DNA of 46,105 nucleotides, taken from a virus. Under the pieces are notes generated by a model that was not told the DNA's origin, did not search any database, and saw only the letters and a program-made list of their open reading frames with translations. The stretch spans positions 1 through 46,105 of the IMG/VR virus record IMGVR_UViG_3300009506_000057; one strand, 5' to 3'. Made by a program: the position numbers and the translations under genes. Of this stretch, positions 1 through 46,105 are shown one piece after another (position 1 is the stretch's first letter; the number at the start of each line of letters is the position of its first letter).

Positions 1-144
1 TTCGCGTCTGCTTTTGCTTTCTTCGCAAGTTCTTCGACGCCGTCAACGGTTGGAGGGGTCAAGTTCAGTTTCTTGATTTCCTGTGCCGTTGCTTCGCCAG
101 CGGGTTCGATAATATCGAAGAATCCGCTCACGTCTTCATTGTCG
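1..144. repeat. Left copy of 144-bp terminal direct repeat
   Basis: Bases 1-144 are identical to 45962-46105. The repeat lies inside a coding sequence that reads through without a break when the ends are joined. This is what a circularly permuted or circular assembly gives, and it means the unique genome is about 45,961 bp. A true short direct terminal repeat cannot be ruled out from sequence alone, but such ends usually lie between genes. Confidence 0.95.
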
Positions 145-227
145 GGAAAGTAGACAAACTCTCCCGCTTTTGCCCGTTGAGTAACGCCGTTGAAGCGTCG
201 CCCTTGTCTTACTTTGTACTTTTTCAC
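1..227 (-). CDS. Small structural-region protein (5' part; spans the junction)
   Basis: Starts with GTG at 227-225, preceded by a GAAGGAG Shine-Dalgarno site. Joined across the junction to 45913-45961 it gives 91 residues beginning MKKYKVRQGRRFNG. Residues 1-45 form a compact mixed-charge segment with GEFVYFPD, and the end is a low-complexity Ala/Lys/Glu/Asp tail (KAKADAKAEADAKAKAE), probably helical. It lies between the major capsid gene and the head-tail adaptor gene, so a small head or connector role is likely; I recognise no family. The stop overlaps the next start as TAATG, so the two are translationally coupled. Confidence 0.75.
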   Translation of the reverse strand, partial: MKKYKVRQGRRFNGVTQRAKAGEFVYFPDNEDVSGFFDIIEPAGEATAQEIKKLNLTPPTVDGVEELAKKAKADA

Positions 228-273
228 GAGAAACTCCTTCTCAGGTTTTCAATAACAAATGACAGTCGAAAGA

Positions 274-1287
274 CTACATACCCGTGATATGGCAGATGCC
301 GACCACGTCATTGTAATCTTCTTTGATACGAGGGGTCATTGCGTCCATGACGCGGAACTCAGTCAAGAACCCGCCTCGTTCTGTCCACTGAACGGTTACG
401 ATTCCCTGTGCAATCTCAAGGTCAATGACGTTTCGGGTCAGTTGAACCATGACGCCTTCGCCAGCGGTCAAGTTGAAAGAGCGCTTCAAAAAGGACAGTT
501 GCGGAATCGTGTTGAGCATGACCGTAAGTTCATTATTGTCATTGCTACCGTACTGATGGAGTGTCTCACCATACTGGGTGTTGGCTGCATAAAAGCCCCA
601 AGGACCTTCGAAGCCCAACCCCGCCATATAGTTTATAGCACCGACAAGAGTGTTGTAAGCATTTCCCGACGTGCCCCAGTCCCCACCGCCGAAGTTCGTT
701 GCGGTATCTGTGACGCGGTTCGGCTGACTGGTGTACCCGTAAATGGGATAACCCGAATAGATGTTGCCCGAGCCGTTGAACAAGATTTCTTCGTTCATGT
801 CGCGAACCTTCTTCGTTGCTTCGCGAACGTGGTCAACTTCGAGCATACCGCGACCGTTACGACTTGCCATCAAGTGACGTAAAGAGATACCGAAGTCTTT
901 GTGAATGATGGGCAGGGGAACGAACTTCTCGTCGTAGTCGACGCGGTCTTGTTGACCTTGAACAACTCCGTCCATGCTCATTTGAGCGGGCTCCATGTCA
1001 GAGATGACAGGATAACCAGACAGAATGACAGACAGGCTTGAGGGTTTGGTCAGACCTGCGGAGATTAGGTCATTGACACCCGTTAGCCCTGTGCGGAATG
1101 TTTCCATTACTGCATCGTCGATTTGCAACCACTCGTCGCGAGTGAGGGCGGCGTTCTGCACAAGCGGGTAAGCGCCACGCAGTTTATTAAGGGTGATATT
1201 GCCCTTCTCGTCGATGAATCGGTTGATGCCCCCACCTGGGGCTGACCCAAGAAAAGAGCGACCGTTTGAAACTTGTACCCTAGGCAT
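274..1287 (-). CDS. Major capsid protein (HK97-fold, encapsulin-like family)
   Basis: 337 residues, start ATG at 1287 with GGAGGTG upstream. The middle carries features shared with encapsulin-type shell proteins and related phage capsids: a segment around IPLPIIHKDFGISLRHL, then an EILFNGSGNIYSGYPIYGY loop region near residue 170, and a conserved C-terminal half ending in an aromatic- and acid-rich segment. Length and position, directly after the protease/scaffold and decoration genes and before the connectors, fit a major capsid protein. It would form the icosahedral shell. Family assignment is from pattern recognition; the capsid role is strongly supported by gene order. Confidence 0.85.
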   Translation of the reverse strand: MPRVQVSNGRSFLGSAPGGGINRFIDEKGNITLNKLRGAYPLVQNAALTRDEWLQIDDAVMETFRTGLTGVNDLISAGLTKPSSLSVILSGYPVISDMEPAQMSMDGVVQGQQDRVDYDEKFVPLPIIHKDFGISLRHLMASRNGRGMLEVDHVREATKKVRDMNEEILFNGSGNIYSGYPIYGYTSQPNRVTDTATNFGGGDWGTSGNAYNTLVGAINYMAGLGFEGPWGFYAANTQYGETLHQYGSNDNNELTVMLNTIPQLSFLKRSFNLTAGEGVMVQLTRNVIDLEIAQGIVTVQWTERGGFLTEFRVMDAMTPRIKEDYNDVVGICHITGM

Positions 1288-1733
1288 TATTGCACCTCCA
1301 CTAAAATTCGAACCGCCGTTCCCCCTGCGCCGTTATTCACGGCTTCCGCGGCACGAGCGACGACTTCGCCAGTTGTAACCGCTTGCAAAGCGCCCGCTCC
1401 ATCGCTCTCGAGAATTGCATCGAAAGCAACATTTTCGCCAGCAGACAACCAAGCGTAAATCTTAGCGCCACGCGGTGGGATTACCCAACTGACGGCGTCG
1501 CCATCATTTGCATAATCCGTATCAATGTCGCCACCAGTGAGCACTTGCAAGCGCTCATCGGCGAACATTCGTTGTGGCGAAGTATCGGCGGCGGTTGAGT
1601 TCGGGGCGACTTCGGTTGAAGATGCTCGTTCAATGAGCATCCCCGGGGTGATGTCGACGCCAGCGTCGAGAGCATCTTCGCCGAAGATGCACAGTTCTTC
1701 GCCAGTGACAACCACTTTTTTGATAGCCATCAT
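1287..1733 (-). CDS. Probable capsid decoration/cement protein
   Basis: 148 residues, ATG at 1733 overlapping the scaffold stop as ATGA, with AAGGATGG upstream. Rich in Ala, Val and Gly with short beta-like segments. The middle reads DAVSWVIPPRGAKIYAWLSAGENV, typical of small trimeric beta-rich decoration proteins, and the C-terminus ends in AVRILVEVQ. It sits between scaffold and major capsid genes, the usual place for a capsid-stabilising protein. Identification rests on composition and gene order, not on a named motif. Confidence 0.65.
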   Translation of the reverse strand: MMAIKKVVVTGEELCIFGEDALDAGVDITPGMLIERASSTEVAPNSTAADTSPQRMFADERLQVLTGGDIDTDYANDGDAVSWVIPPRGAKIYAWLSAGENVAFDAILESDGAGALQAVTTGEVVARAAEAVNNGAGGTAVRILVEVQ

Positions 1734-2890: not shown

Positions 2891-2892
2891 AT

Positions 2893-3925: not shown

Positions 3926-4102
3926 TTACTCTCCGTTCACAATCTCAATGTCTGCGAGTAGTAATCCCTTCATCGTGCAAAACCTGTCCCAAAGCATGAG
4001 TACCCCCCGTCTTTCTTCCTCATTCGGCAAGTCGTCTGTCTCAACTGGGAGAAGAAAGTCGACCAACTCATTGTCGCTTTTTGGGGTTATTGGGGTTGTC
4101 AT
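3926..4102 (-). CDS. Small acidic protein overlapping the portal 3' end
   Basis: 58 residues, ATG at 4102, stop TAA at 3928. Begins MTTPITPKSDNELVDFLLPV and ends in LLLADIEIVNGE. It overlaps the last 35 bases of the portal gene in another frame and fills the otherwise empty gap before the minor head gene. Codon use and amino-acid composition look coding. There is a weak GGACGGA ribosome site. Unknown function; possibly a small head protein. Confidence 0.65.
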   Translation of the reverse strand: MTTPITPKSDNELVDFLLPVETDDLPNEEERRGVLMLWDRFCTMKGLLLADIEIVNGE

Positions 4103-5489
4103 TCTGTCCGTCCGTTGGTTCTTCTGGTGGGTTCAAGTTCATATCGGGCAAAAGAGTCGCTTTTGCCTTCGGAAAGAATATGTCGATAAATGTCTCGATG
4201 TCGATGACTTGCTCGAGCAAACCACCCGAGAGCGTGTTGATTAGATTCGCGACTTTCACCGCGAGCGTCGCCTTCTGCTCATCTGTCATCTGGAACAGTG
4301 AAGGCCATTCGGTCGTATATTCGCCGTTTGAAGGTTGCGGGAGAATACCCAGTTCCAAGAATCTCTCTACAACTGGAACAAGCATCCCATCGTCGGCATG
4401 CTTGTTCTGTCTCGTCGATATATAGGCCGCCAAGTTCTCATCGTCTTGAGTGCTCGCAAGTTCTCCCGCTTCGTTCCCTACCAATACTCTTTGTGGGACG
4501 CGTGAGCCAGTCGATAAAGACTTGATAATCATCGACCCCTGTTCTTTTGCAGATACAAGGTCGGCATCGAACTTCTCAGCCTTGACCCCAGTCAACTTCA
4601 AAAAGCGCTGGATGTTCTGCATGAAAGCGTTAATTTGGTCGTCAAGGTCTGTGAACTCTTGAGTTCCTTCGACTGGGAACTCTGCATCATCTTCGACTGT
4701 GAAGACCCACCCGGGGTTGACAAGTAACCAAAAAGCTTCGCTTGCCCCGCCCATGACTTTTTCCCAATCTAATAAGCGATTGAAGATTCTTTTCAAGCGC
4801 GGAGTTCCGTAGGTGCGAGAAGACGGGTTGCCCTCTTTGAAGTGAATCAGTCTTGACCAATGCACCTTTACTTCGCCGATGTCTTCATCAAAGGTTATCT
4901 TGTAATACAACGGAAGTCCATAGCGCGGGTCAGTCTGCGTCGTCTCAAGTTGAGCAATCTTCGCATTACCTTCGTTGTGTACTGAGATATAGCGCAACCC
5001 TTCGGCGCTCAACTTCGTGAGCGGTTGGTCGAACTGCCCGGGAGCTCCCAAGAATATCATCGAGTACCTTGAGATGGCATTGTAAATGTCTGCATTGTTC
5101 AAAGCGGTAATGAGTTTGAGTCTCTTGTTCAGGGCTTTCCAAGTTCTGAGAAAGTCGGTCAAGTCTTCGTCATTATCTGAGTCTGTTCGACTGTCACCGT
5201 CAATAAGAATAGGTTCATTTCTCCAAGTCTCGTCGGCGATGAAGTCTGCTATTGTGCTCGCCATCTCGTCTCGTTCGTACAGGTTGAGATAATCCTTGAA
5301 AGCAAGGTCTTTGGGATACCCAAACGATTTATAAGTGTCTCGCTCACCCTCATGGGTCATACCTATACCACTCATGAGAAGCGCTCGCTCTTGTGCTACC
5401 GAGAACATGTCAAGCGCTTTGTTCATCTTCATGACCAACTCGTCGCGAGTTTTGCTCTTTGTCTCGAGCGTCTCGTCTGTCATTACCAT
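4068..5489 (-). CDS. Portal protein
   Basis: 473 residues, start ATG at 5489 after GAGGAGG. Pattern matches DUF1073/phage portal proteins with an anti-CBASS-like early segment: LNLYERDEMASTIADFIADETWR near residue 70, SRYSMIFLGAPGQFDQPL, VHWSRLIHFKEGN near 210, a GTPRLKRIFNRLLDWEKVMGG helix, then IIKSLSTGSRVPQRVLVGNEAGELAS near 325. It forms the dodecameric DNA gate at the capsid vertex. Gene order terminase, portal, minor head is canonical. Confidence 0.9.
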   Translation of the reverse strand: MVMTDETLETKSKTRDELVMKMNKALDMFSVAQERALLMSGIGMTHEGERDTYKSFGYPKDLAFKDYLNLYERDEMASTIADFIADETWRNEPILIDGDSRTDSDNDEDLTDFLRTWKALNKRLKLITALNNADIYNAISRYSMIFLGAPGQFDQPLTKLSAEGLRYISVHNEGNAKIAQLETTQTDPRYGLPLYYKITFDEDIGEVKVHWSRLIHFKEGNPSSRTYGTPRLKRIFNRLLDWEKVMGGASEAFWLLVNPGWVFTVEDDAEFPVEGTQEFTDLDDQINAFMQNIQRFLKLTGVKAEKFDADLVSAKEQGSMIIKSLSTGSRVPQRVLVGNEAGELASTQDDENLAAYISTRQNKHADDGMLVPVVERFLELGILPQPSNGEYTTEWPSLFQMTDEQKATLAVKVANLINTLSGGLLEQVIDIETFIDIFFPKAKATLLPDMNLNPPEEPTDGQNDNPNNPKKRQ

Positions 5490-5492
5490 TTT

Positions 5493-6863
5493 CTACCTCC
5501 TCGGGACTATCCTTCTTTTCGGTGTTTGTGCTCTTACTGGGGACGAACCAAAAGTCCCCGCCTTTTTGTATTTTAGCACCAATTGAGTTCCCGCCCAAAC
5601 CATCGCGTCAAGTCTGTTCGGCGATGGGTCGCCCGGAACCCATAGGCAGAGTTCATCTTCAAGAGCATACAAGTTCCCTACAATATGTCCCCGCCCCTTC
5701 TCGAATACGGTGCTCACTGGGTCGGCGCGCGTCTGTTTGCCTCTACTCGCCCAAACAAGCTTGACCTTGACTCTTGGGTCTATCTGGTGAATGACTGTGC
5801 TCACCATCTCACCACCATTGTTCTTCTCTGCGACAATATAATCGGCTTCAATGTCATAATACAACTCGATTGCCTTTTGCGCCCATTGAGCGGGAGAACC
5901 CTGAATCGTCTCGTCTCTGAAAGCATAAAAATGCTTTTGGTCGCCTATCTTGCACATCCCCGCCCCAATGATACCCGCGTCGTCACCCGTAGACGTCGCA
6001 GACGGGTCAATCGCTACGACTACAACCGCAAAGTCTGGAAGTTTCTTGACCCTGAACTTCTCGAGAGTGTCTCTCGTCCACAATGCCCCGGGCGCTTCGT
6101 TGACATCTTCGGCAAGAACTTCTTGTCTGTATGATGTCTCTGAGATGTCGTCAACGATTTCGGCGAGCGCCTCTTCTGAGATGTAAGGGTTATCGTGGCT
6201 CGTAAAGTGAAAAGCAGCCCATCTCCCAGACTTGTCTTTCTTCGCTTTTTCGAACATCTTCGCGGCATACTGTGGGTCTTTGGCTCGCGACTTGTGGGCG
6301 AAGCGCAAAGATGGCGGGGTATAGATGAAGATTGCATCGCCGTTATTATCCATGAGCATGAGAGAGCCGACTTCGTCCCATGTGTTCTCTGTCATAAGTT
6401 GAAACTCATCGAGAATCAACACGTCGGCAAAGTCACCACGAAGCGTGTCGGCGTTCCATGCCGTTTTCGCTCTTATCCTGTTCTCAGTCCCGACGACTTC
6501 AATCACATGAGATGATTCATTCTTCTTGTACTTCCCGTGGTCGATACCGTCTTGTAATGCTTGCTTGACTTCATACCAAAACTTAGTGATTTGGTCAGAC
6601 GTCGGCGTCGCATAAAGAACCCTACGACCATCTAAGAAAGCTTCGACGGCAATGTCAGACGCGAGCACAGTCTTCCCGCCACGACGCCCCGCTCGTATCA
6701 TTTTCCGCTTCGCTCTGGACGCTTTTATCTCGACTTGTTTGTCGTGAAGTTCCCGTCTCTGGACAATAACGTTTGTATGAGCGGTAACGTTCGGGTCTGC
6801 GCCGTCTGCGATGATTTCAGAGAGAAAGTCTTCTAATATCTGCGGCGATTTGTCCGAGAACAT
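5493..6863 (-). CDS. terL: Terminase large subunit
   Basis: 456 residues. ATPase domain: Walker A GRRGGKT at residues 59-65, Walker B VLILDE ending at residue 153, and coupling motif near YTPPS at 181. The C-terminal RNase H-like nuclease domain begins at VVVVAIDPSATSTGDDAG, with the first metal-binding Asp near 286. It pumps DNA through the portal and cuts concatemers. It overlaps the small subunit gene by 47 bases and precedes portal by 3 bases. Confidence 0.95.
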   Translation of the reverse strand: MFSDKSPQILEDFLSEIIADGADPNVTAHTNVIVQRRELHDKQVEIKASRAKRKMIRAGRRGGKTVLASDIAVEAFLDGRRVLYATPTSDQITKFWYEVKQALQDGIDHGKYKKNESSHVIEVVGTENRIRAKTAWNADTLRGDFADVLILDEFQLMTENTWDEVGSLMLMDNNGDAIFIYTPPSLRFAHKSRAKDPQYAAKMFEKAKKDKSGRWAAFHFTSHDNPYISEEALAEIVDDISETSYRQEVLAEDVNEAPGALWTRDTLEKFRVKKLPDFAVVVVAIDPSATSTGDDAGIIGAGMCKIGDQKHFYAFRDETIQGSPAQWAQKAIELYYDIEADYIVAEKNNGGEMVSTVIHQIDPRVKVKLVWASRGKQTRADPVSTVFEKGRGHIVGNLYALEDELCLWVPGDPSPNRLDAMVWAGTQLVLKYKKAGTFGSSPVRAQTPKRRIVPRR

Positions 6864-7592: not shown

Positions 7593-8477
7593 TTATTCGT
7601 TGAAGTCTTTGTAAATCTTTTGAAGGACTTCGCTTTGAATATCTTTCTTTTTGACGAGGTCGACGCCGTACTCGTCGGAACTCTCTTTGAGTCTTAAGCC
7701 CTTCTTTTTGATGAGCGGGGTATCGAACGAGCGCCACTCATCTTTTATCTTGTGTTGTGCTCTGTCCCACCGTCTGACTGTCTCGACCAAATGAGGCCAG
7801 CGGGCTTCGAGTTCTCGAGACATCTTGGTTCTTCCATGTCCATGATAGAGGGCGTCTGTATTGCCCCCGCTCATCTTCATGGTCTGCTCTTTCTCAATCA
7901 AGAACGTATTAATCTCGACGGTGCAGTACCCTCCGCTCAACACTTGAAGACAAAGGTCGGTATCTTCGTTGTAAATGCCCCGCCAGTGGTACGGAAGTTC
8001 ATTCCAAAAGAGCGTCGCGGAATACACATGACAATTGAGAAAGAACGGGGGTATCTTGCTACGAGCGAAGCCCCGATAATTGAAGCCAGTAATCCCGATA
8101 TTCTCATAACGCTCCGTGAAGTCTTCCGCAACTCTCATCGCAGTTCCCGCAGGATACGGAATTCGCTTACCTTTATACAGTCGAATGATGCTTCGGATGT
8201 TGTCATCAAGTTGCCAATGTCTTTTGAAGCCCTGCTCTTGTGAGTGCTCGCGAATCCAGTTACGAGCGGGAACTACCGTCCCTTTGTCTCTGAACGGTAG
8301 CACCAAGACGCGCTCGTCGCCATAAGTTTTTGCGTAGTTCTCTGCCTCTTGCTTCTCTACGACAAGATGAAACGGCACTTCATCGCGGACAAGAAACTTT
8401 GCGGTAAGGCACTTATCCCACCGCCCCTTCGATGGAATATATACGGGATACTGGGGCATATTCTTAGTTTTGGTCAT
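7593..8477 (-). CDS. TET-associated-type glycosyltransferase, copy 2
   Basis: 294 residues, ATG at 8477 after AAGGATG. Features of the phage TAGT family: PVYIPSKGRWDKC at 11-23, HWQLDD at 87-92 (candidate metal and nucleotide-sugar binding) and NEDTDLCLQVL at 170-180. Members are predicted to transfer sugars to oxidised or hydroxymethylated pyrimidines in phage DNA. It is a clear paralogue of the gene just upstream (shared YIPSKGR, HWQ-DD, RYENI, NEDTD, and a similar C-terminus), but diverged. It overlaps that gene by 14 bases and sits directly before the terminase genes, consistent with modification before packaging. Substrate not determinable. Confidence 0.75.
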   Translation of the reverse strand: MTKTKNMPQYPVYIPSKGRWDKCLTAKFLVRDEVPFHLVVEKQEAENYAKTYGDERVLVLPFRDKGTVVPARNWIREHSQEQGFKRHWQLDDNIRSIIRLYKGKRIPYPAGTAMRVAEDFTERYENIGITGFNYRGFARSKIPPFFLNCHVYSATLFWNELPYHWRGIYNEDTDLCLQVLSGGYCTVEINTFLIEKEQTMKMSGGNTDALYHGHGRTKMSRELEARWPHLVETVRRWDRAQHKIKDEWRSFDTPLIKKKGLRLKESSDEYGVDLVKKKDIQSEVLQKIYKDFNE

Positions 8478-9321
8478 CGAGCATCCTTTTTAGGTGTTCG
8501 CTTTTCACTTCGCTTCGGGCAACCAACTCAGTGTCATACTTGTGAGACTTCTCAGTCTTGACCCCTTCTCTCTTTATCAGCCGTTGAGTGAAGCGCATCC
8601 ACACCCTATTGATTTGCGGTTCGACTCTCTCATGCGGGTCAATCTTCAAGAATGACCAGTTCCGAGCAAACTCAAGGTTGGTCTTATAAATGGTCTGTTC
8701 GTCTTTGTATATTGTCTCGGAGTTCCCGCCTTCTTTGCGAACGAACCCACCCTCGAATAAGAACATCTGTATAAGAACGGTGCACCAATAATCAGTCATC
8801 AAGACTTGGAGACTCATGTCTGTGTCTTCATTGCCTGAGCGCCAATTGAACGGGAGAGAAGAATCGACGAGCACGCACCCATATACATTCTTATTGAGAT
8901 TGAACGGCGCTTTCACCCCTGCCGTAAATGCCCTACTTTTCAACCCTGCGAGGGCAATGTTCTCGTATCGGTCGACAAAGTCTTCAATCGCAGAGAGAGC
9001 GACGTTCGCGGGATAATCTATCTTTTTCCCTTTGTGCAGTTTCAAAACTCCCTTTATGTCATCGTCGATTTGCCAGTGACGAAGTTCGCCTAAATTTTTC
9101 GAGTGCTTTTTGATTGCGTTTCTCGAGTATGCTATTCCCTTATCGTTCTCTGGTAGCATCAAGACCCACTCTTTGCCGAAACGCTCGATATACGCTTCGT
9201 AATCCTGCGGTTCGACCACAAGTTGGAAAGCGATATTCGCATCATGAAGAAAGACAGGGGTAATGCACGTCTCAGCCCTGCCCTTCGATGGAATGTAAAC
9301 TTTATACCGAGGAACTGTCAT
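8464..9321 (-). CDS. TET-associated-type glycosyltransferase, copy 1
   Basis: 285 residues from ATG at 9321, which overlaps the ParB-like gene by 4 bases. Motifs: KVYIPSKGRAETC at 7-19, RHWQIDDDIKG at 81-91, and GNEDTDMSLQVL near 163-174. These match the TAGT family of nucleotide-sugar-dependent DNA glycosyltransferases. A second, diverged copy follows immediately, so the two may act in sequence (first sugar, then extension) or on different bases. No oxidase, hydroxymethylase or DNA methylase that would supply the acceptor was recognised in the window. Confidence 0.75.
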   Translation of the reverse strand: MTVPRYKVYIPSKGRAETCITPVFLHDANIAFQLVVEPQDYEAYIERFGKEWVLMLPENDKGIAYSRNAIKKHSKNLGELRHWQIDDDIKGVLKLHKGKKIDYPANVALSAIEDFVDRYENIALAGLKSRAFTAGVKAPFNLNKNVYGCVLVDSSLPFNWRSGNEDTDMSLQVLMTDYWCTVLIQMFLFEGGFVRKEGGNSETIYKDEQTIYKTNLEFARNWSFLKIDPHERVEPQINRVWMRFTQRLIKREGVKTEKSHKYDTELVARSEVKSEHLKRMLDDQN

Positions 9322-10001
9322 TTCCCCTTCTCTCTGAATTCTATACTCGAGACATCGTCTTTCGGACGCGGGGGATACCACGTTGACTTCATAGAGTCGG
9401 TGATGTTGACCCCTATCAACTTTCCAAATGCTTCTCTGTCTTCTTCGCTTGCAAAGTTGACCGTAATCTTCCAAGGTTCTTCCATCGGCTCATAAGCGGG
9501 AAGTCCGACCCATTCTGCATAAGCGTCGAAGTCGTCGTCATCCCCCGGGGGTCGAGTGATAAAGACAAGATTGCTCAATCTCATGTCATCATATCCCGTT
9601 CCCTCGAGTTCGCCACTCTTGCGAATATCGACGAGAAGGGAGACAAGTTTTTGGTCGTCGATTATCCCCAGTTCTCCGATTTCATTATCTCCCGCAAGAA
9701 CCGCGAGCGCTTCGATTGAGTTCGGGTCAAGGTCAAGCACTCGAGCGGGAAGAACTTCAAGTCCCATCTGTTCGGCTGCAATGTGCACCCCATGACCACC
9801 AAGAAGCGTGAAGTCTTTCGCGAGCACCACATTCCTTGTGAACGTGTTCGACTTTATACTCGCCTTTATATGGTCGATTTGCTCTTGTGGGTGCTCTCGA
9901 TAGTTTCTCGGATGGGGCTTCATCTGCGAGACGGGTATCATCTGCACTTCGAACCGCGAGAGTTTCTCACGTAGTCGCTTATTAAGTTTTTTTGCGGTCA
10001 T
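9318..10001 (-). CDS. ParB-like protein linked to DNA modification
   Basis: 227 residues, ATG at 10001. Residues 20-140 resemble the ParB/Srx N-terminal domain: VSQMKPHPRNYREHPQEQI, TFTRNVVLAKDFTLLGGHG, then AVLAGDNEIGELGI. The last 50 residues (WKITVNFASEEDREAFGKLIG to KSTWYP) match a tail domain I associate with phage modification-related ParB/methylase proteins. Here it stands alone, with no methylase fused. It probably assists base modification or DNA marking rather than partitioning, since it heads a cassette with two glycosyltransferases and the terminase. Confidence 0.75.
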   Translation of the reverse strand: MTAKKLNKRLREKLSRFEVQMIPVSQMKPHPRNYREHPQEQIDHIKASIKSNTFTRNVVLAKDFTLLGGHGVHIAAEQMGLEVLPARVLDLDPNSIEALAVLAGDNEIGELGIIDDQKLVSLLVDIRKSGELEGTGYDDMRLSNLVFITRPPGDDDDFDAYAEWVGLPAYEPMEEPWKITVNFASEEDREAFGKLIGVNITDSMKSTWYPPRPKDDVSSIEFREKGK

Positions 10002-10026: not shown

Positions 10027-10323
10027 TTATCCAGTTTTTTTGTCTCTCACGTGCCAAAACGTGTCCCCCGCCGCGATATAGTTCCCCGTAGTATACCAAT
10101 AGGCTGACCACTTCCCGACTGTGTCTGCAAGTTGGTCATAATAATATTCCCCTACCCCAGTCTTTGTAATTGGGTCAATACCATATTCGAACGTGTTCAC
10201 AGTCCCCGCGGGGTCTTTCACTTCGACCTTTACGACGTCGGGGTCTGTCTTGACGTCGTTCGCGTCTGTGAAGACAACGGATATCCGAATCTTTTCACCG
10301 ATGACATAGTCCGTACTAATCAT
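10027..10323 (-). CDS. Small beta-rich structural protein
   Basis: 98 residues, ATG at 10323 with GGAGGT five bases upstream, overlapping the repeat-fiber stop by 8 bases. Sequence has an immunoglobulin-like strand pattern (KIRISVVFTDANDVKTDPD, VEVKDPAGTVNTFEYG, WSAYWYTTGNYIAAGDTFWHV). It resembles small phage tail or fiber accessory proteins. Probable virion component; exact role unknown. Confidence 0.65.
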   Translation of the reverse strand: MISTDYVIGEKIRISVVFTDANDVKTDPDVVKVEVKDPAGTVNTFEYGIDPITKTGVGEYYYDQLADTVGKWSAYWYTTGNYIAAGDTFWHVRDKKTG

Positions 10324-12760
10324 TTCTGACCTCCGCGTTCCCTGTGCTTTCTCTGTTCACGGTTGCGCTCTCTGCAAGTTCAGTCTCAATCGTTGCTCTC
10401 GTCGCTCGACTTGTCGAAGACGAAGCCCACAGTTTGGTAATGATTGCTTGAAGCAAGACGACGGCAGGTTGCGCACCTACGGCAATTTGTCCAAGCGTCG
10501 CTTTGATTGCTATACCTAAAATGCTATAAACGAATGCCGTCTCTCCACTTGTGCTTATTGTACCAACATTCGCCGAGACGTTTATCGCCCCGGGGATGAT
10601 TGCGCTCGCGAATGACTGAGAAGCAATCACACCCACAGAAGCAGGGACAATCGAAGGCGCATAACTCGAGAGCATAACAGTATATCCAGCGCTTGCAATC
10701 ACTGAGACAGAAGCGCTCACTACTACCGCACCCGCGACGATACTCGAGTTCTGACCTTGTACAAGAATCGCGCCGACTGTACAGACAACCGTTATCCCTG
10801 TGAGATTGGAAACTCCCGCAGAATAGCCAGCGCTCGCAATGACTCCCACAGAGATTGAGACAGTCACCGCCCCACCTATCACGCTTGCAGACTGTCCACT
10901 CATAAGCATGACGCCCACAGTCGCGGTAATAATCATCTCGCCGGGGATTATCGTCACAGTGAAGCCAGCGCTCGCAATAATGCCGGCAGTTGTCGAGATT
11001 GCAATCGCACCCGCGACGACGTTCGCCGACTGTCCGGACGCAGATATTACCGCCACTTGTGCGGTGATGACTGTCTCTCCGCTTATGACGTTCGCCGTCT
11101 CGCCGTTCGAAGCAATCAGTCCAACCCCTGCGGGAACTGAGACGCTCCCGGGGATTATCGTCACAGTATGACCGCTCGAAGCAATCACCCCCGAACTTGT
11201 CGAGATTGTGACAATCACTCCCACGCTTGCAGAGTATCCACTTGAAGCAATCGAACCAACAGTCGCGGGAATAACTATTGAGACGACCACAGTCGCAGAG
11301 AAAGAACCCGAAGCAATTATCCCGACCGTAATCGAGACAATGACTTCCCCGGGAATGACGTTCGCAATCTCACCGCTCGAAGCGATAATCGCCACAGTCG
11401 CGACGATACTTACCCCACCAATCGAGACGCTCGCAGAGAAAGAACCCGAAGCGATTGTCCCTACTACGGCAGAGACAATGACTTCACCCGCGACGACATT
11501 CGCAGACTGTCCAGCGCTCGCAATCGCGCCCACAGTCGAAGGGATTGTGACTTCCCCGGGAATGATGCTTGCGGTCTCACCGTTCGAAGCCATTGCGCCC
11601 ACAGTCGCGGGAATGATTGCAATATTCGAGACGTTCGCAGACTGACCCGCAGAAGCAACCACGCCAGCACTCGCAGGAACAGTAACCGCGCCAGGCACGA
11701 CGCTCGCAGACTGACCCGATGAAGCAATCGCACCCACACCGCACGAGATAGTAACCCCCGTCGAGATTGTTATCTGTGGCGTGACTGTATAAGTATCAAG
11801 CACAGTTCCCCCAACCGTTACCCTGAACTTATACGCTTCGTTGTCAACAGCGGCGTCGGTCGCTTGAAGACTCCACTCGAGTTCTGTATACCCGTCTGTG
11901 GTAATGTCGACGGCGTCGGCGGGATTCTCATCGTCTTGAATTCGTCCAGCGTCAAAGTCGCCCGTCGTCTTTCCAGTGGGCGGGGTAAGTTGGGCGGTCG
12001 TGTTCTCACCATTCGCGGTGATGTAGGATGACAGTGAGACGATAATCTCATTCAAGATTGAGATACCCGCTCCAAGTCCAGCGCTCGCAATCACACCCGC
12101 AACCGCTGAGATAATCCTATCCACTACAAGCGAAGCAGAATAACCAGCGCTCGCAATTGTTCCCGCGTTCGCAGAGATTACGGTTTGAATGTCAACCGAA
12201 GCGCTTTGTCCAGCGCTTGCAATTGCACCGACTCCACAGTTGATTGTTACGGAAGACGGCGCGGTTATATTGATGGTTGGGGTTACTGTATAAGTGTTAA
12301 GCGGTGAGGCGCTTGCGTAAACTCTAAACCAAATATTCCCGCTGAAAGCCGTATCCGCTTGCAAACAAAACTCAAACTCACTGACCTGCGAGTTCAAAGC
12401 GGTTGGCGCACCAACACCGTTATCGTCGAAGTATCCTGCGACGAATGACCCTGAACTTATGACTTGAGACGTCGCGTCTCCATCGGTTATCGACTGACCG
12501 CTCGAGATGAGATTTACGCTCCCTCCGCTTGTGGGAACGGCTGAGTATCCCGAAGTCTCGGAGGTGGTCGAATAATAGAGAATATAAGTATTGTTCGAGT
12601 TTCTCGAGTTCGTCTCTGCAATGGTGAATCGAATTCTAAACTTTACCCCTCGCAACTGGTCAAAGTTCGTATTGAGCGCATGAGTGAACGTTCCAGAGTT
12701 CAGAACTACATCATCATCGCGTCCGCGGAAGTTTTGTTGAACAAGTACAGGACTAGCCAT
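10316..12760 (-). CDS. Repeat-rich tail fiber or adhesin
   Basis: 814 residues, ATG at 12760 with GGGAGGAC upstream. Residues 1-160 form a beta-sandwich-like head. From about 165 the protein is almost entirely tandem units of 22-24 residues of the form VG-IAS-GQSA-V-PG-V-I, about 23 in all, interrupted once near 235-325 by an inserted beta domain (DGYTELEWSLQATDAA). No Cys-rich or catalytic motif. The C-terminus is Ser/Thr/Ala/Arg-rich and likely helical. The repeats probably build a long beta-solenoid fiber. It is encoded ahead of terminase rather than after the tail genes. Confidence 0.75.
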   Translation of the reverse strand: MASPVLVQQNFRGRDDDVVLNSGTFTHALNTNFDQLRGVKFRIRFTIAETNSRNSNNTYILYYSTTSETSGYSAVPTSGGSVNLISSGQSITDGDATSQVISSGSFVAGYFDDNGVGAPTALNSQVSEFEFCLQADTAFSGNIWFRVYASASPLNTYTVTPTINITAPSSVTINCGVGAIASAGQSASVDIQTVISANAGTIASAGYSASLVVDRIISAVAGVIASAGLGAGISILNEIIVSLSSYITANGENTTAQLTPPTGKTTGDFDAGRIQDDENPADAVDITTDGYTELEWSLQATDAAVDNEAYKFRVTVGGTVLDTYTVTPQITISTGVTISCGVGAIASSGQSASVVPGAVTVPASAGVVASAGQSANVSNIAIIPATVGAMASNGETASIIPGEVTIPSTVGAIASAGQSANVVAGEVIVSAVVGTIASGSFSASVSIGGVSIVATVAIIASSGEIANVIPGEVIVSITVGIIASGSFSATVVVSIVIPATVGSIASSGYSASVGVIVTISTSSGVIASSGHTVTIIPGSVSVPAGVGLIASNGETANVISGETVITAQVAVISASGQSANVVAGAIAISTTAGIIASAGFTVTIIPGEMIITATVGVMLMSGQSASVIGGAVTVSISVGVIASAGYSAGVSNLTGITVVCTVGAILVQGQNSSIVAGAVVVSASVSVIASAGYTVMLSSYAPSIVPASVGVIASQSFASAIIPGAINVSANVGTISTSGETAFVYSILGIAIKATLGQIAVGAQPAVVLLQAIITKLWASSSTSRATRATIETELAESATVNRESTGNAEVRND

Positions 12761-20877: not shown

Positions 20878-21196
20878 TGTTTTTGTCCTCAAAAGGTAAC
20901 CAAAACATGTACCTAGCTTCATTGTCACCGAAATCCCTTCTATAATGTTTGAAACCTTGCAAAGCTATGAATGTCGTCAGCGATTGAATTTTTCTTAGGC
21001 AATTGTCGGTAACTTTGTTCACACCAAAAAAAGTAAACACAATAAAAAATCGTGGTGGGTAATTCAAAACATAATATTTAATTTTCATTTCGTGTTTATG
21101 TTTTGATGCAAACTCGATAATAGATTTTCTGCATTTGAAAGCAAGAAATTCGGTTCGTTCGTTTCGCGCTTCCCAATCGACCTGTTTTTTAGTCAT
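20870..21196 (-). CDS. Hypothetical protein, paralogue A (AT-rich)
   Basis: 108 residues, ATG at 21196 overlapping the upstream stop as ATGA. It shares NYPP-F-V-F-F-G---VTD--L and a final FGDNEARYMFWLPFE pattern with the protein at 21420-21740, so the two are diverged duplicates flanking one small gene. The DNA is clearly richer in A and T than its neighbours (AAA- and TTT-rich codons), as if recently acquired. No known family. Confidence 0.65.
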   Translation of the reverse strand: MTKKQVDWEARNERTEFLAFKCRKSIIEFASKHKHEMKIKYYVLNYPPRFFIVFTFFGVNKVTDNCLRKIQSLTTFIALQGFKHYRRDFGDNEARYMFWLPFEDKNNE

Positions 21197-27414: not shown

Positions 27415-28338
27415 ATGTCAAACTTTGACAACGGTGAAGAACTGCGGTCAGAACTTCTCCCGAATACTTTTCCCCTTCCAAACTGGGTAATTGATAAAGG
27501 TATTTGGGCGTTGCTTGATGACAAGGAACGAGTTTGTTATGTTATCGTGGTTCGAAAAACACTGGGATGGTGGAAGCGTGCCGACAGAATATCGAAGACT
27601 CAACTCGTCGAACTGTCTGGGCTTTCACCGAAGGCAGTCACCGACGCAATGAGAAACTTAGTTCAATTCGGACTTGTTCTCAGAGTATCGGAGAACAATA
27701 CAGACAATGAAGGCATAGAATGGGGTTATCAGCCGAACCATAGTCTTGTACAAGTGAACGAACTTCTCGAGCGCTACGAGAACAAGTCGAAAGTCAACAA
27801 AGAACGAGCACGAAAAATGAGAGAATGGCAGGGGGGTATGTCCGACACACCCCCATTGTCAGACACAGGGGCGGGGGGTATGTCAGACAACGAACACAAA
27901 ACCAGTAAAACCAATAATTCGGGTTCAAAAGAAGAACCCTCACAGACGAAGCCCAAGACGAAGAAAAAGAGCGCGTCACGTGTTGTCTCAGTTCCCGATG
28001 ACTGGATGCCCCAGTATAAAGCTTTTTGTCAGGGCTTCGGACGTGAAGCGCTCGACCAAAGAGAATTGAAGTTCTGGCTATTCGGCTCAAGTGCTCAACG
28101 AGGTGGGGCGAAGGGTATAAGACATTATTACCTTGCACAGATAACCCCCGATGAAATAGAACGAGCATGGGTCAAAGTAAACAAGATGAAAGAGATAACC
28201 ATCTCAAATCCCAACTCTCTTTTTGCGTTCGCTCAAGATGTACACAGAAAAGCACCGTCGAAGAATGACGAGAGCGAGAGCGAATCAGTAAGAGAGAGAA
28301 TAAAGAAAGCGAAGGAAAAAGCCAATGCACAAGCCTAA
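27415..28338 (+). CDS. Replication initiator (lambda O-like)
   Basis: 307 residues, ATG at 27415 with GGAG / AAGGA sites upstream. The N-terminal winged helix LPNTFPLPNWVIDKGIW then VIVVRKTLGWWKRADRISKTQLVELSGL (15-75) matches the O-type replication N-terminal domain. A linker of about 50 residues (130-190) encodes GGMSDTPPLSDTGAGGMSDN, and its DNA contains direct repeats (see iterons). The C-terminal domain is likely for helicase loader contact. It is followed by a DnaC-like gene, the lambda O-P order. Initiates replication at an origin probably inside its own gene. Confidence 0.8.
   Translation: MSNFDNGEELRSELLPNTFPLPNWVIDKGIWALLDDKERVCYVIVVRKTLGWWKRADRISKTQLVELSGLSPKAVTDAMRNLVQFGLVLRVSENNTDNEGIEWGYQPNHSLVQVNELLERYENKSKVNKERARKMREWQGGMSDTPPLSDTGAGGMSDNEHKTSKTNNSGSKEEPSQTKPKTKKKSASRVVSVPDDWMPQYKAFCQGFGREALDQRELKFWLFGSSAQRGGAKGIRHYYLAQITPDEIERAWVKVNKMKEITISNPNSLFAFAQDVHRKAPSKNDESESESVRERIKKAKEKANAQA
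27416..27430. promoter_or_regulatory. Palindromic operator-like site, copy 3
   Basis: TGTCAAACTTTGACA overlapping codons 1-5 of the initiator gene, about 35 bases downstream of the predicted transcription start. It would suit a repressor blocking early transcription. Confidence 0.6.
27839..27889 (+). repeat. Iteron-like repeats inside the initiator gene (candidate origin)
   Basis: Three copies of TGTC-N-GACA: TGTCCGACA at 27839-27847 and TGTCAGACA at 27857-27865 and 27881-27889. Two lie next to GGGGGGTA runs. The following 50 bases are A-rich. Lambda and relatives also carry iterons within O followed by an A-rich unwinding zone. Confidence 0.55.
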
Positions 28339-29107
28339 AAGAATCAACGAAGTGAACTTGAGCGTCGATAAAGATGCCGGCATCCAGCCAGTATCGACGT
28401 TCCCGTCTTACTGTGTCCCGAACTGCGATACTTGCAACGGTACGGGATACGTCTATGCCAACGTGCCCGAGACTCATCGAAAGCATGGGAAACTCTTACC
28501 CTGCCCGAACTTGCCCGTCGAGAGCACACTTCTGGATTACTGCGGAGTCTCTACTTACGAGCGAGAGCGCTTGAACTGGTCATCTATCTTATACGACATG
28601 GACGAGACTTTGACAGAAGCCGTCGAAGCAATCAAGGCGATGATTGAGAAGCGTTCGGGAGTCGTGTACTTGTACGGGGGGAGCGGTTTGGGGAAGTCGC
28701 TCATCTTGAAGATTGCAACGGTCGAAGTTCTGAGACTACATCAAGGCATGTGGGCGCAATATGTCCACATGACACGAATACTGGATAGGTTGCGCATGGC
28801 GTTCGATGGGGAAACTCCAAACAGGGCAATTGAGAACATGGAGAAGGATTACCAAATGTTCGACTTGCTTTGCATCGACGAACTTGGAAAAGAGCGTGAT
28901 ACACAGTTCGGGAAAGAACGGCAATTCATCTTGCTAGATAAACGGTACGAGGCGGCGATTGAACGAAAAGAAAAGTATATGACCATCATCGCAAGCAACT
29001 TGTTACCTAGTGAACTGCCCTCCGCAACCAAATCAAGACTATGGGACGCAAGATGCACCCATATCGAGATGCAGGGCGACGATTATCGTCTCGGCGCGGA
29101 CGTGTAA
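28325..29107 (+). CDS. Helicase loader, DnaC-like AAA+ ATPase
   Basis: 260 residues, ATG at 28325 overlapping the initiator by 14 bases, with AAGGAAAAA upstream. Possible zinc-binding C30, C34, C37 and C60 in the N-terminus. Walker A GGSGLGKS at 118-125, Walker B LLCIDE ending at Glu186, and sensor segment TIIASNLLPSEL. Loads host DnaB-type helicase at the origin with the O-like protein. No helicase gene is present in the window, consistent with host use. Confidence 0.85.
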   Translation: MHKPKRINEVNLSVDKDAGIQPVSTFPSYCVPNCDTCNGTGYVYANVPETHRKHGKLLPCPNLPVESTLLDYCGVSTYERERLNWSSILYDMDETLTEAVEAIKAMIEKRSGVVYLYGGSGLGKSLILKIATVEVLRLHQGMWAQYVHMTRILDRLRMAFDGETPNRAIENMEKDYQMFDLLCIDELGKERDTQFGKERQFILLDKRYEAAIERKEKYMTIIASNLLPSELPSATKSRLWDARCTHIEMQGDDYRLGADV

Positions 29108-31085: not shown

Positions 31086-31186
31086 TATTCTCCCGGGGGT
31101 CGCTTGTAGAATATAACCATGCCTAAAATTGCGATAGCGAGAACTAACCCTGATACGGCAATTCCTAAAATTGTTGAAGTGTCCAT
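31085..31186 (-). CDS. 33-residue single-pass membrane protein
   Basis: ATG at 31186, stop TAA overlapping the next ATG. Encodes MDTSTILGIAVSGLVLAIAI then LGMVIFYKRPPGE: one transmembrane helix with a basic end. Its coherent composition and exact TAATG coupling to the following membrane protein support it. Confidence 0.6.
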   Translation of the reverse strand: MDTSTILGIAVSGLVLAIAILGMVIFYKRPPGE

Positions 31187-31213
31187 TATCTCTACTTTCC
31201 ACAGAAAAAGCGT

Positions 31214-39139: not shown

Positions 39140-40009
39140 CTATACACTATTATAGGGGGGGTAAAATTCTACTTCCGCGAGCGTCGCCCCAGTTGCGCCC
39201 GTTAATTGAAGCGTTACACTGTTATTCCCGACGACAAAAGGCCAAAGCGTCGACGTGTTGTCGATTTCATCGAAGACGCTCACCCCGTCGACTTCTGCGG
39301 TCTTGAAGCCCGGGCGAGTATCAATAATCAAATGCTCACCCGCAGAGATTGAAGTCGTCGACATGTCAAGCCTATATCCAGTCGTGTTGTTTATCAGGGC
39401 GATATCCGACCCCGGACCTGTTATGTCCCAAATAGGCCAAGCGGGGGCGTCCCCGGGGTTGTTGATTGTCGCACCCCCTGAAAGACCATCGGGCGAGACG
39501 ACAAGCGGAAAGAACGGGAAGAAAGCAGAAGGGGCAGAGACTCCATAACTTGCGGTAGTCGGAGATTGCGGATACCAATAGGGGTCATACGCTTTGAACT
39601 GAATAACAACTTGAGTTCCCTTTGCGCCGAATAACCTGTTCTGAGAACTGTCATCAAAGATTGCCGACATTCTGCACGAGAGTTCTCGTATTGTTCCGTT
39701 CGGTCTTGTGTATCTCAGAGTACCGTCTCCGTTGACTGGGTCAAGATACTTCGCGAGATAGGCCATTCGGTCGAGAAAGTCATTGCGGTTATTACCGAGC
39801 ACGAAGACGGGAACTTCCAAGATTCTCGGCTTCACTTGAATTCCCGATATATAAGCCCCCGCGACGAAGGGCGTCTCACGCTCGATGATTGCGAACGGAG
39901 TTCCATGAAAACCCGACTTTCCACGAATCACCCAGTAATGAACTTGGTCAGTGAAGTTTATAGTCGCTCCGAGTGGAGATACAAATTCGATTGACTGGGT
40001 ACTAGCCAT
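39140..40009 (-). CDS. Distal tail protein (Dit)
   Basis: 289 residues, ATG at 40009 with GGAG seven bases upstream, overlapping the tape measure stop by 8 bases. Typical Dit features: N-terminal beta barrel (IRGKSGFHGTPFAIIERETP), then IQVKPRILEVPVFVLGNNRN, RMAYLAKYLDPVNGDGTLRY, and a galectin-like C-terminal domain. It follows the tape measure gene. Confidence 0.75.
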   Translation of the reverse strand: MASTQSIEFVSPLGATINFTDQVHYWVIRGKSGFHGTPFAIIERETPFVAGAYISGIQVKPRILEVPVFVLGNNRNDFLDRMAYLAKYLDPVNGDGTLRYTRPNGTIRELSCRMSAIFDDSSQNRLFGAKGTQVVIQFKAYDPYWYPQSPTTASYGVSAPSAFFPFFPLVVSPDGLSGGATINNPGDAPAWPIWDITGPGSDIALINNTTGYRLDMSTTSISAGEHLIIDTRPGFKTAEVDGVSVFDEIDNTSTLWPFVVGNNSVTLQLTGATGATLAEVEFYPPYNSV

Positions 40010-42692
40010 TTAGAATCTCCTGTCTTCGTTGAATGAGCGCTAATTGTTCAGGGTCGAGCGTAGTATCTGCGAACTGGAACGAATTATTATAGTTCGTGGT
40101 TGCGCCAGTCGACGCAAGTCTCTCGACGCTTCCCAGTCGAGCAAGTGAAGTCTCGAGCGACGGGAGCGAGGTGTTCGCAAGTTGGTCAACCGCTGAGACG
40201 ATACCGCGCATACCTATCTCAAAGGGAGTGGGAGAACCCGGGGTAAAGATTGCGGGAACTTTCAAAGCATCAAAAGCACGTTGAAGCGCTTTCACTTGTC
40301 CGACCACATCGCCCACCGCACCCGCCAACGTGTTGAAAGCGCTCGCGAGTTTCACAGTCAAAAACGATACAAGCCGATGACCCTCAGCCTGTACATTTCT
40401 CATGTGGTTGATAAAGATACTCAGACTCAAGAGCGCCGCCTTTAGAGGCCCTGCGGTGAAGTTCATCATCGCGGTAGTCATTGCTTCGAACATTGCGAGC
40501 CACATAGTTTGAGTCATCGTAATGAAGTTTACAAAGTTTGCTTGCAATGCCGTGAACATCTGAGTCAATAATGTTATGAACATCGTCGCGGGGTCTGTGA
40601 GCAATTGCAAGAACTGGGTAAAGACAGTTTGGAACATGGTTATCCCGCCCTGAATGAGTCCCAGTAAGTCTGGAAAACCACCACTGAATATGCTCTTAAT
40701 ACCGTTCATGATGTCGGGGACGATTGAATGCCCGACGAGCGTATTATATAAGTTTGTAAAGAACTGAGTAAACCCGTCGACGAAGCCCGTCACAAAACCA
40801 ATAATCGCATCGAACGCCGCGGAGAACCCAGTCTTCAAATTCTCCCAAAGAGCGGTTGCAGTTGTGAGCACACCTTCTTTCCACGCTTCCCAACCTTGTT
40901 GTATCAAGTCACTATTGCCTGTGAAGATGCCGACAATGATGTTGAAAGCCCCAGTCATTCCCGTAATAATGCCCGACCACATTTGAGCGAGTCCATCTGC
41001 TATTGACTGGATATGCCCCAAAAACCCTGTGACGGCGGTTGCGATGCCATTCACAAGCCCAATGACTACTCCGAGTATAAAGAGAATGACTCCCGCAATA
41101 ATCTCACCCGCCCCAATGAGCAATCCGACAAGTACCGTCCCAATAACTTGTAAGACTGGCTGAATTGCCGTCCACAATTCTTGTAACTGGGGAATGAGCG
41201 GGGCAAATGCTTCTTGCACGACAAGGAACGAAGTTCGAAGCGCATTCCACAACTCGGAGAACGTTACGCCCAAGAATCCGAATATCGACGACAAGAAACT
41301 TCCTACCGTTCTCATCTGCGTCATGAAGTTTGCCCAAACGCCCTTTATCGTCTCCCACCACCCTAAGATGACATCCCTCATCCCGCCCCAGTTTTGAGTC
41401 CATGCGAAGTACAGGGCAGCCCCCGCCGCTATTAATAGAGTGATAAGAGCAACGGGCGCCATAAGAGCGGTGACAATACTTGTAACAATTCCAACGACCA
41501 CCGTTACCAGTGTTGGGGTAGCAATCGCAAGTAAGGCGAGTTTGAGTTCTTCCCAATTGTCCTTCGCCCATTGAACCGCATCTCCAATACCCATCAAGAT
41601 GGTAATTGTATTTTGGGATACACCCAACCTTTCAAGCAGACCTTCAACGTCTCCCGTTTGTTGAAAGATGCTCAATGCTAGCCCAAGACGATTTATGCCG
41701 TCGACGAGATTGTCGACGAACTCCTTCGGGTTTACGTCGAAGTTTACAAACTTGGCGAGCGTCTCGCCCAAATAAGAGAGCGCATCTTGAAGGTCAGGGC
41801 GAAGCAGTTCATCGAGCACGTCGGCTAACCCGCCCGAGATTTTATCGAGCGTAGGCAAGACGACGCCAGCACCCACGTTCGCTTGTATAAAATCTTTAAT
41901 GTTCGACGTTATACCTTGCCACGTTCGGGACATTCGTTGCGCCGCGTTCCCGAAGTCTCGCTCGACCATCTCGACGAAAGTCGAGATAAACAAATCCACT
42001 CCCTCGGTCGATTTCTGCATCTTTTCTTTGAACTTGGTCAAGTCCATGTTTGTCATCCCGAGTTTATCTTGCATCTCTGCGAGAACGTCATTCACTGGGA
42101 CAAGAGCACCACGAGCCAAGTCTCGAAGTTCTGTGCCTGTTATCTTTCCCGCCGCCTTCATCTGACCGAAGTTGTAAATGATTCTTTGAAGTACATCGTC
42201 TGTTAAACCCATGCCAGCGGTGAAGTTCCCCGCCGCGACTGTTAGACGTTTTGCTTGGTCAGTCGCGAAGCCCATTGCCATTGCCGTTGAAAGTGTGTTC
42301 TGTAAACTCTCAACGGTGAAGGGCGTCGTCACCGCGATTTGTTTCACCCAGTTGACAAGGTCTTTTGCGGGTTGTACTGCTTTAACAAGAGCGTCTTTGA
42401 ATTCAATCGTCCCCTCTGACATACGAAAGATTTCTCTCGCCGTCAATCCCTCAAGTTGGATTTGAAGCATTTGGAAGCGAGAAGCAGCCTTGAAGACTTC
42501 ATCGCCGACGCTCTTGATTGCCGCCACAAGTCTCATGACAACATTCGCAATGATAAACCCTACCGCGTTCTCCCATATTCTGCGGAACGAAGACATAAAC
42601 CCTTGCGTATTACCCAAAGCGCGGTTGAGTCCGTCTTTCAAACCTTGAGCGTCGAACCCGCTCTCAAGCGTCGCTTTTCCTAGACTAGCCAT
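40002..42692 (-). CDS. Tape measure protein
   Basis: 896 residues, ATG at 42692. Early region has the tape-measure pattern FMSSFRRIWENAVGFIIANV, then FKDALVKAVQPAKDLVNWVK, VAAGNFTAGMGLTDDVLQRI and KITGTELRDLARGALVPVND. Several hydrophobic segments near 390-430 and 520-560, then long helical spans. It sets tail length; the size suggests a tail near 130 nm by the usual 0.15 nm per residue rule. It follows the chaperone pair. Confidence 0.9.
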   Translation of the reverse strand: MASLGKATLESGFDAQGLKDGLNRALGNTQGFMSSFRRIWENAVGFIIANVVMRLVAAIKSVGDEVFKAASRFQMLQIQLEGLTAREIFRMSEGTIEFKDALVKAVQPAKDLVNWVKQIAVTTPFTVESLQNTLSTAMAMGFATDQAKRLTVAAGNFTAGMGLTDDVLQRIIYNFGQMKAAGKITGTELRDLARGALVPVNDVLAEMQDKLGMTNMDLTKFKEKMQKSTEGVDLFISTFVEMVERDFGNAAQRMSRTWQGITSNIKDFIQANVGAGVVLPTLDKISGGLADVLDELLRPDLQDALSYLGETLAKFVNFDVNPKEFVDNLVDGINRLGLALSIFQQTGDVEGLLERLGVSQNTITILMGIGDAVQWAKDNWEELKLALLAIATPTLVTVVVGIVTSIVTALMAPVALITLLIAAGAALYFAWTQNWGGMRDVILGWWETIKGVWANFMTQMRTVGSFLSSIFGFLGVTFSELWNALRTSFLVVQEAFAPLIPQLQELWTAIQPVLQVIGTVLVGLLIGAGEIIAGVILFILGVVIGLVNGIATAVTGFLGHIQSIADGLAQMWSGIITGMTGAFNIIVGIFTGNSDLIQQGWEAWKEGVLTTATALWENLKTGFSAAFDAIIGFVTGFVDGFTQFFTNLYNTLVGHSIVPDIMNGIKSIFSGGFPDLLGLIQGGITMFQTVFTQFLQLLTDPATMFITLLTQMFTALQANFVNFITMTQTMWLAMFEAMTTAMMNFTAGPLKAALLSLSIFINHMRNVQAEGHRLVSFLTVKLASAFNTLAGAVGDVVGQVKALQRAFDALKVPAIFTPGSPTPFEIGMRGIVSAVDQLANTSLPSLETSLARLGSVERLASTGATTNYNNSFQFADTTLDPEQLALIQRRQEILNG

Positions 42693-43484: not shown

Positions 43485-43524
43485 TGGTTAGTCCTTTACT
43501 GTCTAGCAGTTTTTTTTTGTTTTT

Positions 43525-44097: not shown

Positions 44098-44106
44098 AAG
44101 TGCCTC

Positions 44107-44547: not shown

Positions 44548-44550
44548 TAG

Positions 44551-45003: not shown

Positions 45004-45190
45004 TGGGCGGGGTATCCTTATAAGTTTCCAAGAACCGATTTGCGACCCCAACAATCGAACTTCGTTCTCGTCTTGCGGTCTTGGTCAACTCTTTGAAAGC
45101 GTCGGAGTTCGTGTCAAGCACGAGAACGATTCTCTCGCTCACTCCTTCACCGCTTCTTGTGTAAATCGTTCTTTTTTTGTTCTGAGCCAT
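44981..45190 (-). CDS. Small connector-region protein
   Basis: 69 residues, ATG at 45190 with AAGGAG eight bases upstream. Basic N-terminus (AQNKKRTIYTRSGEGVSERI), helical centre (AFKELTKTARRERSSIVGVA), overlapping the next gene. Unknown role in the connector block. Confidence 0.65.
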   Translation of the reverse strand: MAQNKKRTIYTRSGEGVSERIVLVLDTNSDAFKELTKTARRERSSIVGVANRFLETYKDTPPSGASAKS

Positions 45191-45191
45191 T

Positions 45192-45539
45192 CTACAAACT
45201 CCTTGCCGTTACCACCACATGAGTTCGTCCTCTGAATCCGTTGACGTTCTCATAAGATGCTTCGACGATAAACTTTTTTGAAGACGCGGACTCGCCGTTC
45301 TGAAACTCGAGTTCGGTGATTTGGTCGCCCTTCTGCACGTCTGTTCCTATCGGAAAGAAAAACTTTTCTTCTGCGACCGTGACGAGTTCGGCTGACATGG
45401 GGTCGACCTGCTTGTGCTCTGACCGAATGTACTTGCAAGGGATATTCGTTGTCGGTGTGTCAAAGTCCGTTGGGAGTTCATTGAGCGCATTGGCGACTCC
45501 CGTAGGCTTCGCAACCGAGCAAGTAAAATCGAATATCAT
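45192..45539 (-). CDS. Head-closure-like protein
   Basis: 115 residues, ATG at 45539 overlapping the previous stop as ATGA. Strand pattern TTNIPCKYIRSEHKQVDPMS, EKFFFPIGTDVQKGDQITEL, KKFIVEASYENVNGFRGRTH suggests a beta-barrel head-closure or stopper protein. Order after the adaptor supports it. Confidence 0.65.
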   Translation of the reverse strand: MIFDFTCSVAKPTGVANALNELPTDFDTPTTNIPCKYIRSEHKQVDPMSAELVTVAEEKFFFPIGTDVQKGDQITELEFQNGESASSKKFIVEASYENVNGFRGRTHVVVTARSL

Positions 45540-45913
45540 CGCGAGCGCAAGTCGAAGGCAGACATCTTCGCCCTTTGCTTTCCGAGACTTTCGAGCGTCC
45601 CGTTCGTATCAAGCAAGAGGGCGTTTTGCCCATAGAAGGTACTTCTCAAACCCTCCCCCGTCTTTCCCATGACCTTGTAAGAGTAGTCCGTCATACGTTC
45701 ACTTTCTACACGTGGCGAAGCCACAGAAGCAAGATGGGAAATGAGAAATAAGGCAATCGCTCTCGAGCGGTCATCTGAGTAGTCTACATCCGCGAATATC
45801 TCATTGAATAAAATTGTTCCAGTTTCAATGAAAGCGGTAAGGCTTGTCTCGTCGAGCGTGGTCGGGAAAATTGCCTTTATCTCATCTGGGGTGATGTTTG
45901 ATACGGTCGCCAT
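45536..45913 (-). CDS. Head-tail adaptor (DUF4054-like)
   Basis: 125 residues, ATG at 45913 overlapping the upstream stop (TAATG). DEIKAIFPTTLDETSLTAFI then FADVDYSDDRSRAIALFLIS HLASV (split here for length) is the helical pattern of gp6/DUF4054 adaptors, which sit below the portal. Followed by the closure protein. Confidence 0.75.
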   Translation of the reverse strand: MATVSNITPDEIKAIFPTTLDETSLTAFIETGTILFNEIFADVDYSDDRSRAIALFLISHLASVASPRVESERMTDYSYKVMGKTGEGLRSTFYGQNALLLDTNGTLESLGKQRAKMSAFDLRSR

Positions 45914-46105
45914 TACTTAGACTTTACGTTCTCTGCTTTCGCTTTCGCGTCTGCTTCTGCTTTCGCGTCTGCTTTTGCTTTCTTCGCAAGTTCTTCGACG
46001 CCGTCAACGGTTGGAGGGGTCAAGTTCAGTTTCTTGATTTCCTGTGCCGTTGCTTCGCCAGCGGGTTCGATAATATCGAAGAATCCGCTCACGTCTTCAT
46101 TGTCG
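45913..46105 (-). CDS. Small structural-region protein (3' part; spans the junction)
   Basis: This is the C-terminal part of the 91-residue gene that begins at 227. It covers the repeated segment and ends in an Ala/Lys-rich tail with TAA at 45915-45913. The final A of the stop is the first base of the next ATG (TAATG). It is the same gene as the entry at 1-227, not a second copy. Confidence 0.75.
   Translation of the reverse strand, partial: DNEDVSGFFDIIEPAGEATAQEIKKLNLTPPTVDGVEELAKKAKADAKAEADAKAKAENVKSK
45962..46105. repeat. Right copy of 144-bp terminal direct repeat
   Basis: Exact copy of bases 1-144. It contains the 3' half of the 91-residue gene that spans the junction. Its presence marks the contig as circularly closed. 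Confidence 0.95.

Follow-up and report, generated by a model that had tools for sequence, protein, structure and literature searches.

Complete absence of GATC from the genome of an uncultured siphovirus-like virus, achieved by synonymous codon choice and best explained by restriction-site elimination

The window analysed here, that is, the whole stretch of DNA, is one uncultured virus record of 46,105 bases. It encodes a siphovirus-type structural set (terminase, portal and tape measure) in a coherent gene order; the virus is a tailed, siphovirus-like one. The main features are as follows.

1..144, terminal direct repeat, left copy, exactly identical to the right copy
4068..5489, minus strand, portal protein
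5493..6863, minus strand, terminase large subunit (top isolate match Methanosarcina virus MetMV, 57% over 80%)
7593..8477, minus strand, TAGT-family glycosyltransferase 1 (PF20691, 163 bits)
8464..9321, minus strand, TAGT-family glycosyltransferase 2 (PF20691, 119 bits)
9318..10001, minus strand, ParB-N-like protein (DNA-methyltransferase-family matches confined to its ParB-like N-terminal part)
27415..29107, plus strand, replication initiator O-like protein and DnaC-like helicase loader (two genes)
40002..42692, minus strand, tape measure protein (PF20155)
45962..46105, terminal direct repeat, right copy, exactly identical to the left copy

The exact terminal direct repeat of 144 bases indicates that the contig is probably a complete genome, with no GATC concealed at the junction. 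The listed open reading frame of the second TAGT gene begins at 9474 with TTG, a likelier start being the ATG near 9321. The lifestyle is probably non-temperate; a search of the genome with one model, Phage_integrase, detected no tyrosine integrase. Three further genes deserve mention. An 814-residue protein (10316-12760, minus strand) consists mostly of degenerate repeats of the IASAGxSASV type, has no match in Pfam or PHROG, and is possibly a virion decoration or adhesin. A DUF5131 (PF07505) protein at 20059-20928 (minus strand) also matches the PADLOC candidate-defence models PDC-M30B/M41B, with related matches in two of the comparison contigs described below (L103 and L097). Finally, a DUF4231/SLATT-like membrane protein (30429-31202, minus strand) weakly matches the 2TM effector domains associated with SMODS/SLOG.

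An earlier note on this DNA had reported that GATC was missing from the whole genome, where about 180 copies would be expected from composition. A script count bore this out: there are 0 copies in 46,105 bases, against 178 expected by base composition. Comparison with a second-order Markov model, the check proposed in that note, gave an expectation of 161. In coding DNA, 200 synonymous-codon shuffles over 56 ORFs (40.9 kb) predicted 142 ± 10 copies, again with none observed (z = -13.7). Taking eliminated sites to be those with an observed/expected ratio below 0.1 and an expected count above 15 (after the CB < 0.1 threshold of PMC6286503), GATC is eliminated under both models (0/161 Markov, 0/142 codon shuffle).

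The manner of this loss is clearly visible in the codons. Isoleucine following a codon that ends in G is encoded by ATC at 0 of 209 positions, all of them being ATT or ATA, as compared with 308 of 604 in other contexts. Similarly, aspartate preceding a codon that starts with C is never GAT (GAC at 120 of 120 positions), as compared with 271 GAT codons of 705 elsewhere. Junctions of the form NGA|TCN, in which a glycine or arginine codon ending in GA precedes a TCN serine codon, number zero. Silent replacement can thus be seen in every reading frame, and dipeptide frequencies are near expectation; synonymous codon choice alone accounts for the absence of GATC. Moreover, the outer-position single-base neighbours of the word are evenly raised (AATC/GATT 1.31, CATC/GATG 1.32, TATC/GATA 1.33). 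Such an even enrichment, which is not limited to the C-to-T product, speaks against any one route of mutation and indicates that selection acted on the DNA word itself. The purely synonymous nature of the change and its specificity to codon context lend strong support to selection against GATC.

No other four-base palindrome has been lost completely, yet GATC is one of a dozen restriction-type words that the genome avoids. The earlier note had stated that other four-base palindromes occur, AGCT and GGCC among them. These two are indeed present, but strongly depleted (AGCT, 19 observed and 137 expected over the whole genome; GGCC, 18/73). Depletion extends to TTAA (28/109) and CCGG (41/113). 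CATG, TCGA, TGCA, ACGT, TATA and GCGC are normal by the same measure. The codon-shuffle test in coding DNA gave a similar picture for AGCT (19/134), TTAA (25/132), GGCC (16/78) and CCGG (39/112), and added GGNCC (9/80, including GGWCC, counted as GGACC, at 4/48), CCWGG (3/46), GCWGC (9/41), CTCTTC (2/28), CTGAAG (1/22), CTGGAG (1/18) and ATCGAT (0/14). The Markov test concurs on GATC, AGCT, TTAA, GGCC, CCAGG, GGACC, CTCTTC, CTGAAG and ATCGAT. In all, about eleven further Type II (or IIS/IIG) recognition words are depleted approximately 3- to 22-fold or absent, in keeping with selection by several Type II restriction systems. CTAG is moderately low in coding DNA (22 vs 53 expected by codon shuffle), CATG, CGCG, TGCA, GCGC, CTNAG and GTNAC lie at 0.9 to 1.1 of the codon-shuffle expectation, and TCGA is in excess. 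The non-restriction words CCTC and AGGA are likewise low under the codon-shuffle null, which means that a low count does not always mark a restriction site, and other preferences in the sequence may lie behind part of the wider list. Two of the avoided words, CTGAAG and CTGGAG, are sites of Type IIG enzymes. Across viruses, Type IIG enzymes show no general site avoidance (PMC6286503).

The same script was applied to control genomes. Neither lambda nor Methanosarcina virus MetMV has a strongly depleted 4-mer. T7 resembles the present virus in that GATC is nearly gone (6/143), and CCWGG and CTGAAG are avoided (CCAGG 2/59, CTGAAG 1/21). Halorubrum virus Hardycor1, whose portal is a distant match to that of this virus, also avoids many restriction words, and its list of depleted words is the longer one (CTAG, AGCT, TGCA, CTCGAG, GACGTC and GGCGCC are all 0); it differs in that GATC is outside its strongly depleted 4-mers. 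The controls therefore place the avoidance seen here as strong but inside the known range. Complete loss of GATC has itself been described before. Staphylococcus phage K and fRuSau02 are large, strictly lytic myoviruses with a known host carrying Sau3AI-type enzymes. In these Twort-like phages GATC is completely missing, which has been attributed to host restriction enzymes (PMC5618024); here, by contrast, many other words are avoided too. GATC is also absent from the unrelated haloviruses SH1, PH1 and HHIV-2, in which CTAG is absent or rare (PMC3622292) and not, as here, merely moderately low.

These results are best explained by a model in which the virus escaped Type II restriction through elimination of recognition sites, a reading that we consider very probable. 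In such a scheme, repeated infections of hosts with GATC-cutting enzymes (of the DpnII/Sau3AI/MboI type, possibly methyl-dependent ones too) would have led to the cutting of GATC-bearing genomes, finally leaving only GATC-free ones, and the remaining avoided words would bear witness to other enzymes, encountered more rarely or at a later time. The earlier note had ascribed the loss to selection by restriction or by a methyl-directed system. The selection is strongly supported by the codon-context-specific silent change. The agent, like the particular enzymes and host behind the loss, is inferred; restriction is the most economical one because avoidance extends to many more Type II words. By extension, the usual hosts would be expected to carry GATC-cutting enzymes. 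In a survey of almost 4,000 viruses, about one tenth showed near-complete site elimination, which mainly concerned phages that are non-temperate and sites of orthodox Type II systems (PMC6286503).

For GATC itself, the results do not directly distinguish restriction from methyl-directed mismatch repair. A host using GATC in methyl-directed processes (Dam/MutH/SeqA) might have favoured its loss, since a virus without the word would evade mismatch repair and nicking by MutH; the same has been proposed for phiX174 and for enterobacterial phages. The phiX174 genome contains no GATC, and reintroduced sites cut its mutation rate eightfold (PMC5014478); T7, as noted above, is also poor in the word. 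However, the phiX174 study found that GATC avoidance may not be driven by mutation rate alone, a search of the present genome for a Dam-type gene found none, and the avoidance of GGNCC, AGCT, TTAA, GGCC, GCWGC and CCGG would be left unexplained. Since this virus, in contrast to phiX174 with its literature link to Dam/MutH, additionally avoids many four-base Type II words, we regard a methyl-directed origin as unlikely. Less likely still is methyl-dependent restriction by a DpnI-like enzyme cutting Gm6ATC, encountered in alternative hosts or in a DpnI-positive host after a Dam-positive one. GATC is under-represented in every one of 46 phages with a host carrying Type IIM GATC enzymes (PMC6286503), and a methyl-dependent GATC enzyme of Haloferax volcanii has been cited for the GATC-free haloviruses (PMC3622292), but the idea accounts for GATC alone and requires methylated viral DNA, whereas a search of the genome gave no adenine methyltransferase. 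A mutation bias or the chemistry of hypermodification, such as deamination of a modified cytosine in GATC, could be entertained in a genome with two TAGT glycosyltransferases, but is already contradicted by the equal rise of the outer neighbours beyond the C-to-T product, by the loss of cytosine-free TTAA and by the failure to find a cytosine modification pathway, and has next to no likelihood. Equally negligible is the possibility that the absence is artefactual, arising in assembly or from a library prepared with a GATC cutter: although the record comes from an uncultured virus, its gene order is coherent and its terminal repeat exact, and library bias could merely select GATC-free molecules, not produce codon-context replacement at 329 Ile/Asp positions.

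The relatives of the virus were also examined. The first 25 kb have no near DNA relative among 50,697 phage records, and no portal relatives were found in viral contigs. The terminase, 57% identical to that of the archaeal virus MetMV, resembles those on contigs in metagenome-assembled genomes (MAGs) of Chloroflexi, Desulfobacterota-type bacteria, Acidobacteria and Methanoperedens, which suggests that it belongs to a wide-ranging packaging module. Terminases roughly 42-60% identical to it occur in MAGs of many bacteria, mostly from sediment or groundwater. Spacer-like host matches gave nothing usable in 15 genomes with related terminases and about 400 genomes from each of four phyla (approximately 1,600), a search that used a 20-kb part of the window with few candidates scored per genome and cannot exclude a host. 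A lone 37-base match of 89% identity was treated as chance, because the surrounding 2 kb examined held no repeat array. These searches yielded neither a host nor a GATC-specific enzyme. The list of avoided words could help to pair the virus with a host through the latter's restriction or methylation repertoire. The finding is real and clean, with restriction-site elimination quantified in full for an uncultured virus, and is a further instance of a known, well-described viral escape from DNA-cutting host enzymes.

The earlier note had joined the loss of GATC to predicted DNA glycosylation genes. The genes themselves were confirmed, with both TAGT matches above the PF20691 cut-off, but the proposed link is unsupported, and site elimination and glycosyltransferases can now be separated. 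The two adjacent genes (7593-9321, minus strand) form a 'solitary TAGT' pair, with no recognisable alpha- or beta-glucosyltransferase partner or hydroxymethylase. In T6, TAGT adds a second glucose onto cytosine that carries one already; what solitary TAGTs do has been left open (PMC13216743). The genome has no match to thymidylate-synthase-fold hydroxymethylases (PF00303) or C5-methyltransferases (PF00145), for both of which the positive control worked, nor to TET/JBP (PF12851), and no N6/N4- or D12-type methyltransferase was found in it; the ParB-like gene is not counted as a methyltransferase, since it matches such families only through its N-terminal part. Among 45 TAGT records, TET/JBP gave one match only. 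Furthermore, cytosine-free TTAA and cytosine-rich CCGG, GGCC and CCWGG are avoided alike, which would be unexpected in a genome protected by glycosylated cytosine. GATC is at normal levels on contigs that share the ParB-TAGT-TerL order and come from Chloroflexi and Acidobacteria MAGs (L084, 100 observed and 92 expected; L103, 74 and 83). Across related loci, two TAGT matches were present in 21 of 80 and a ParB-like neighbour in 37. A tie between TAGT and GATC loss was rejected, since, of the 62 TAGT-bearing contigs that were long enough, 6 had GATC below 0.1 of expectation, close to the one tenth reported for viruses generally. The DNA of this virus may be glycosylated, but this fails to account for the avoidance pattern, and the glycosyltransferases would be a separate matter from the loss of GATC. 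A further reading is improbable, in which a host guild's restriction enzymes could be read off from the avoided dozen and site elimination might moreover be combined with a TAGT-based modification of some base, shielding certain words only (the unavoided ones, such as TCGA, GCGC, CATG and TGCA). We know of no description of a strategy divided in this way between elimination and word-limited modification.

Other TAGT-bearing contigs have eliminated CTAG, CATG or GTAC instead. In L078, L079 and L075 there are 0 copies of GTAC and 0 to 1 of GATC, and L082 has neither CATG nor CCGG; in these four contigs of uncultured viruses, too, a palindrome has disappeared completely.
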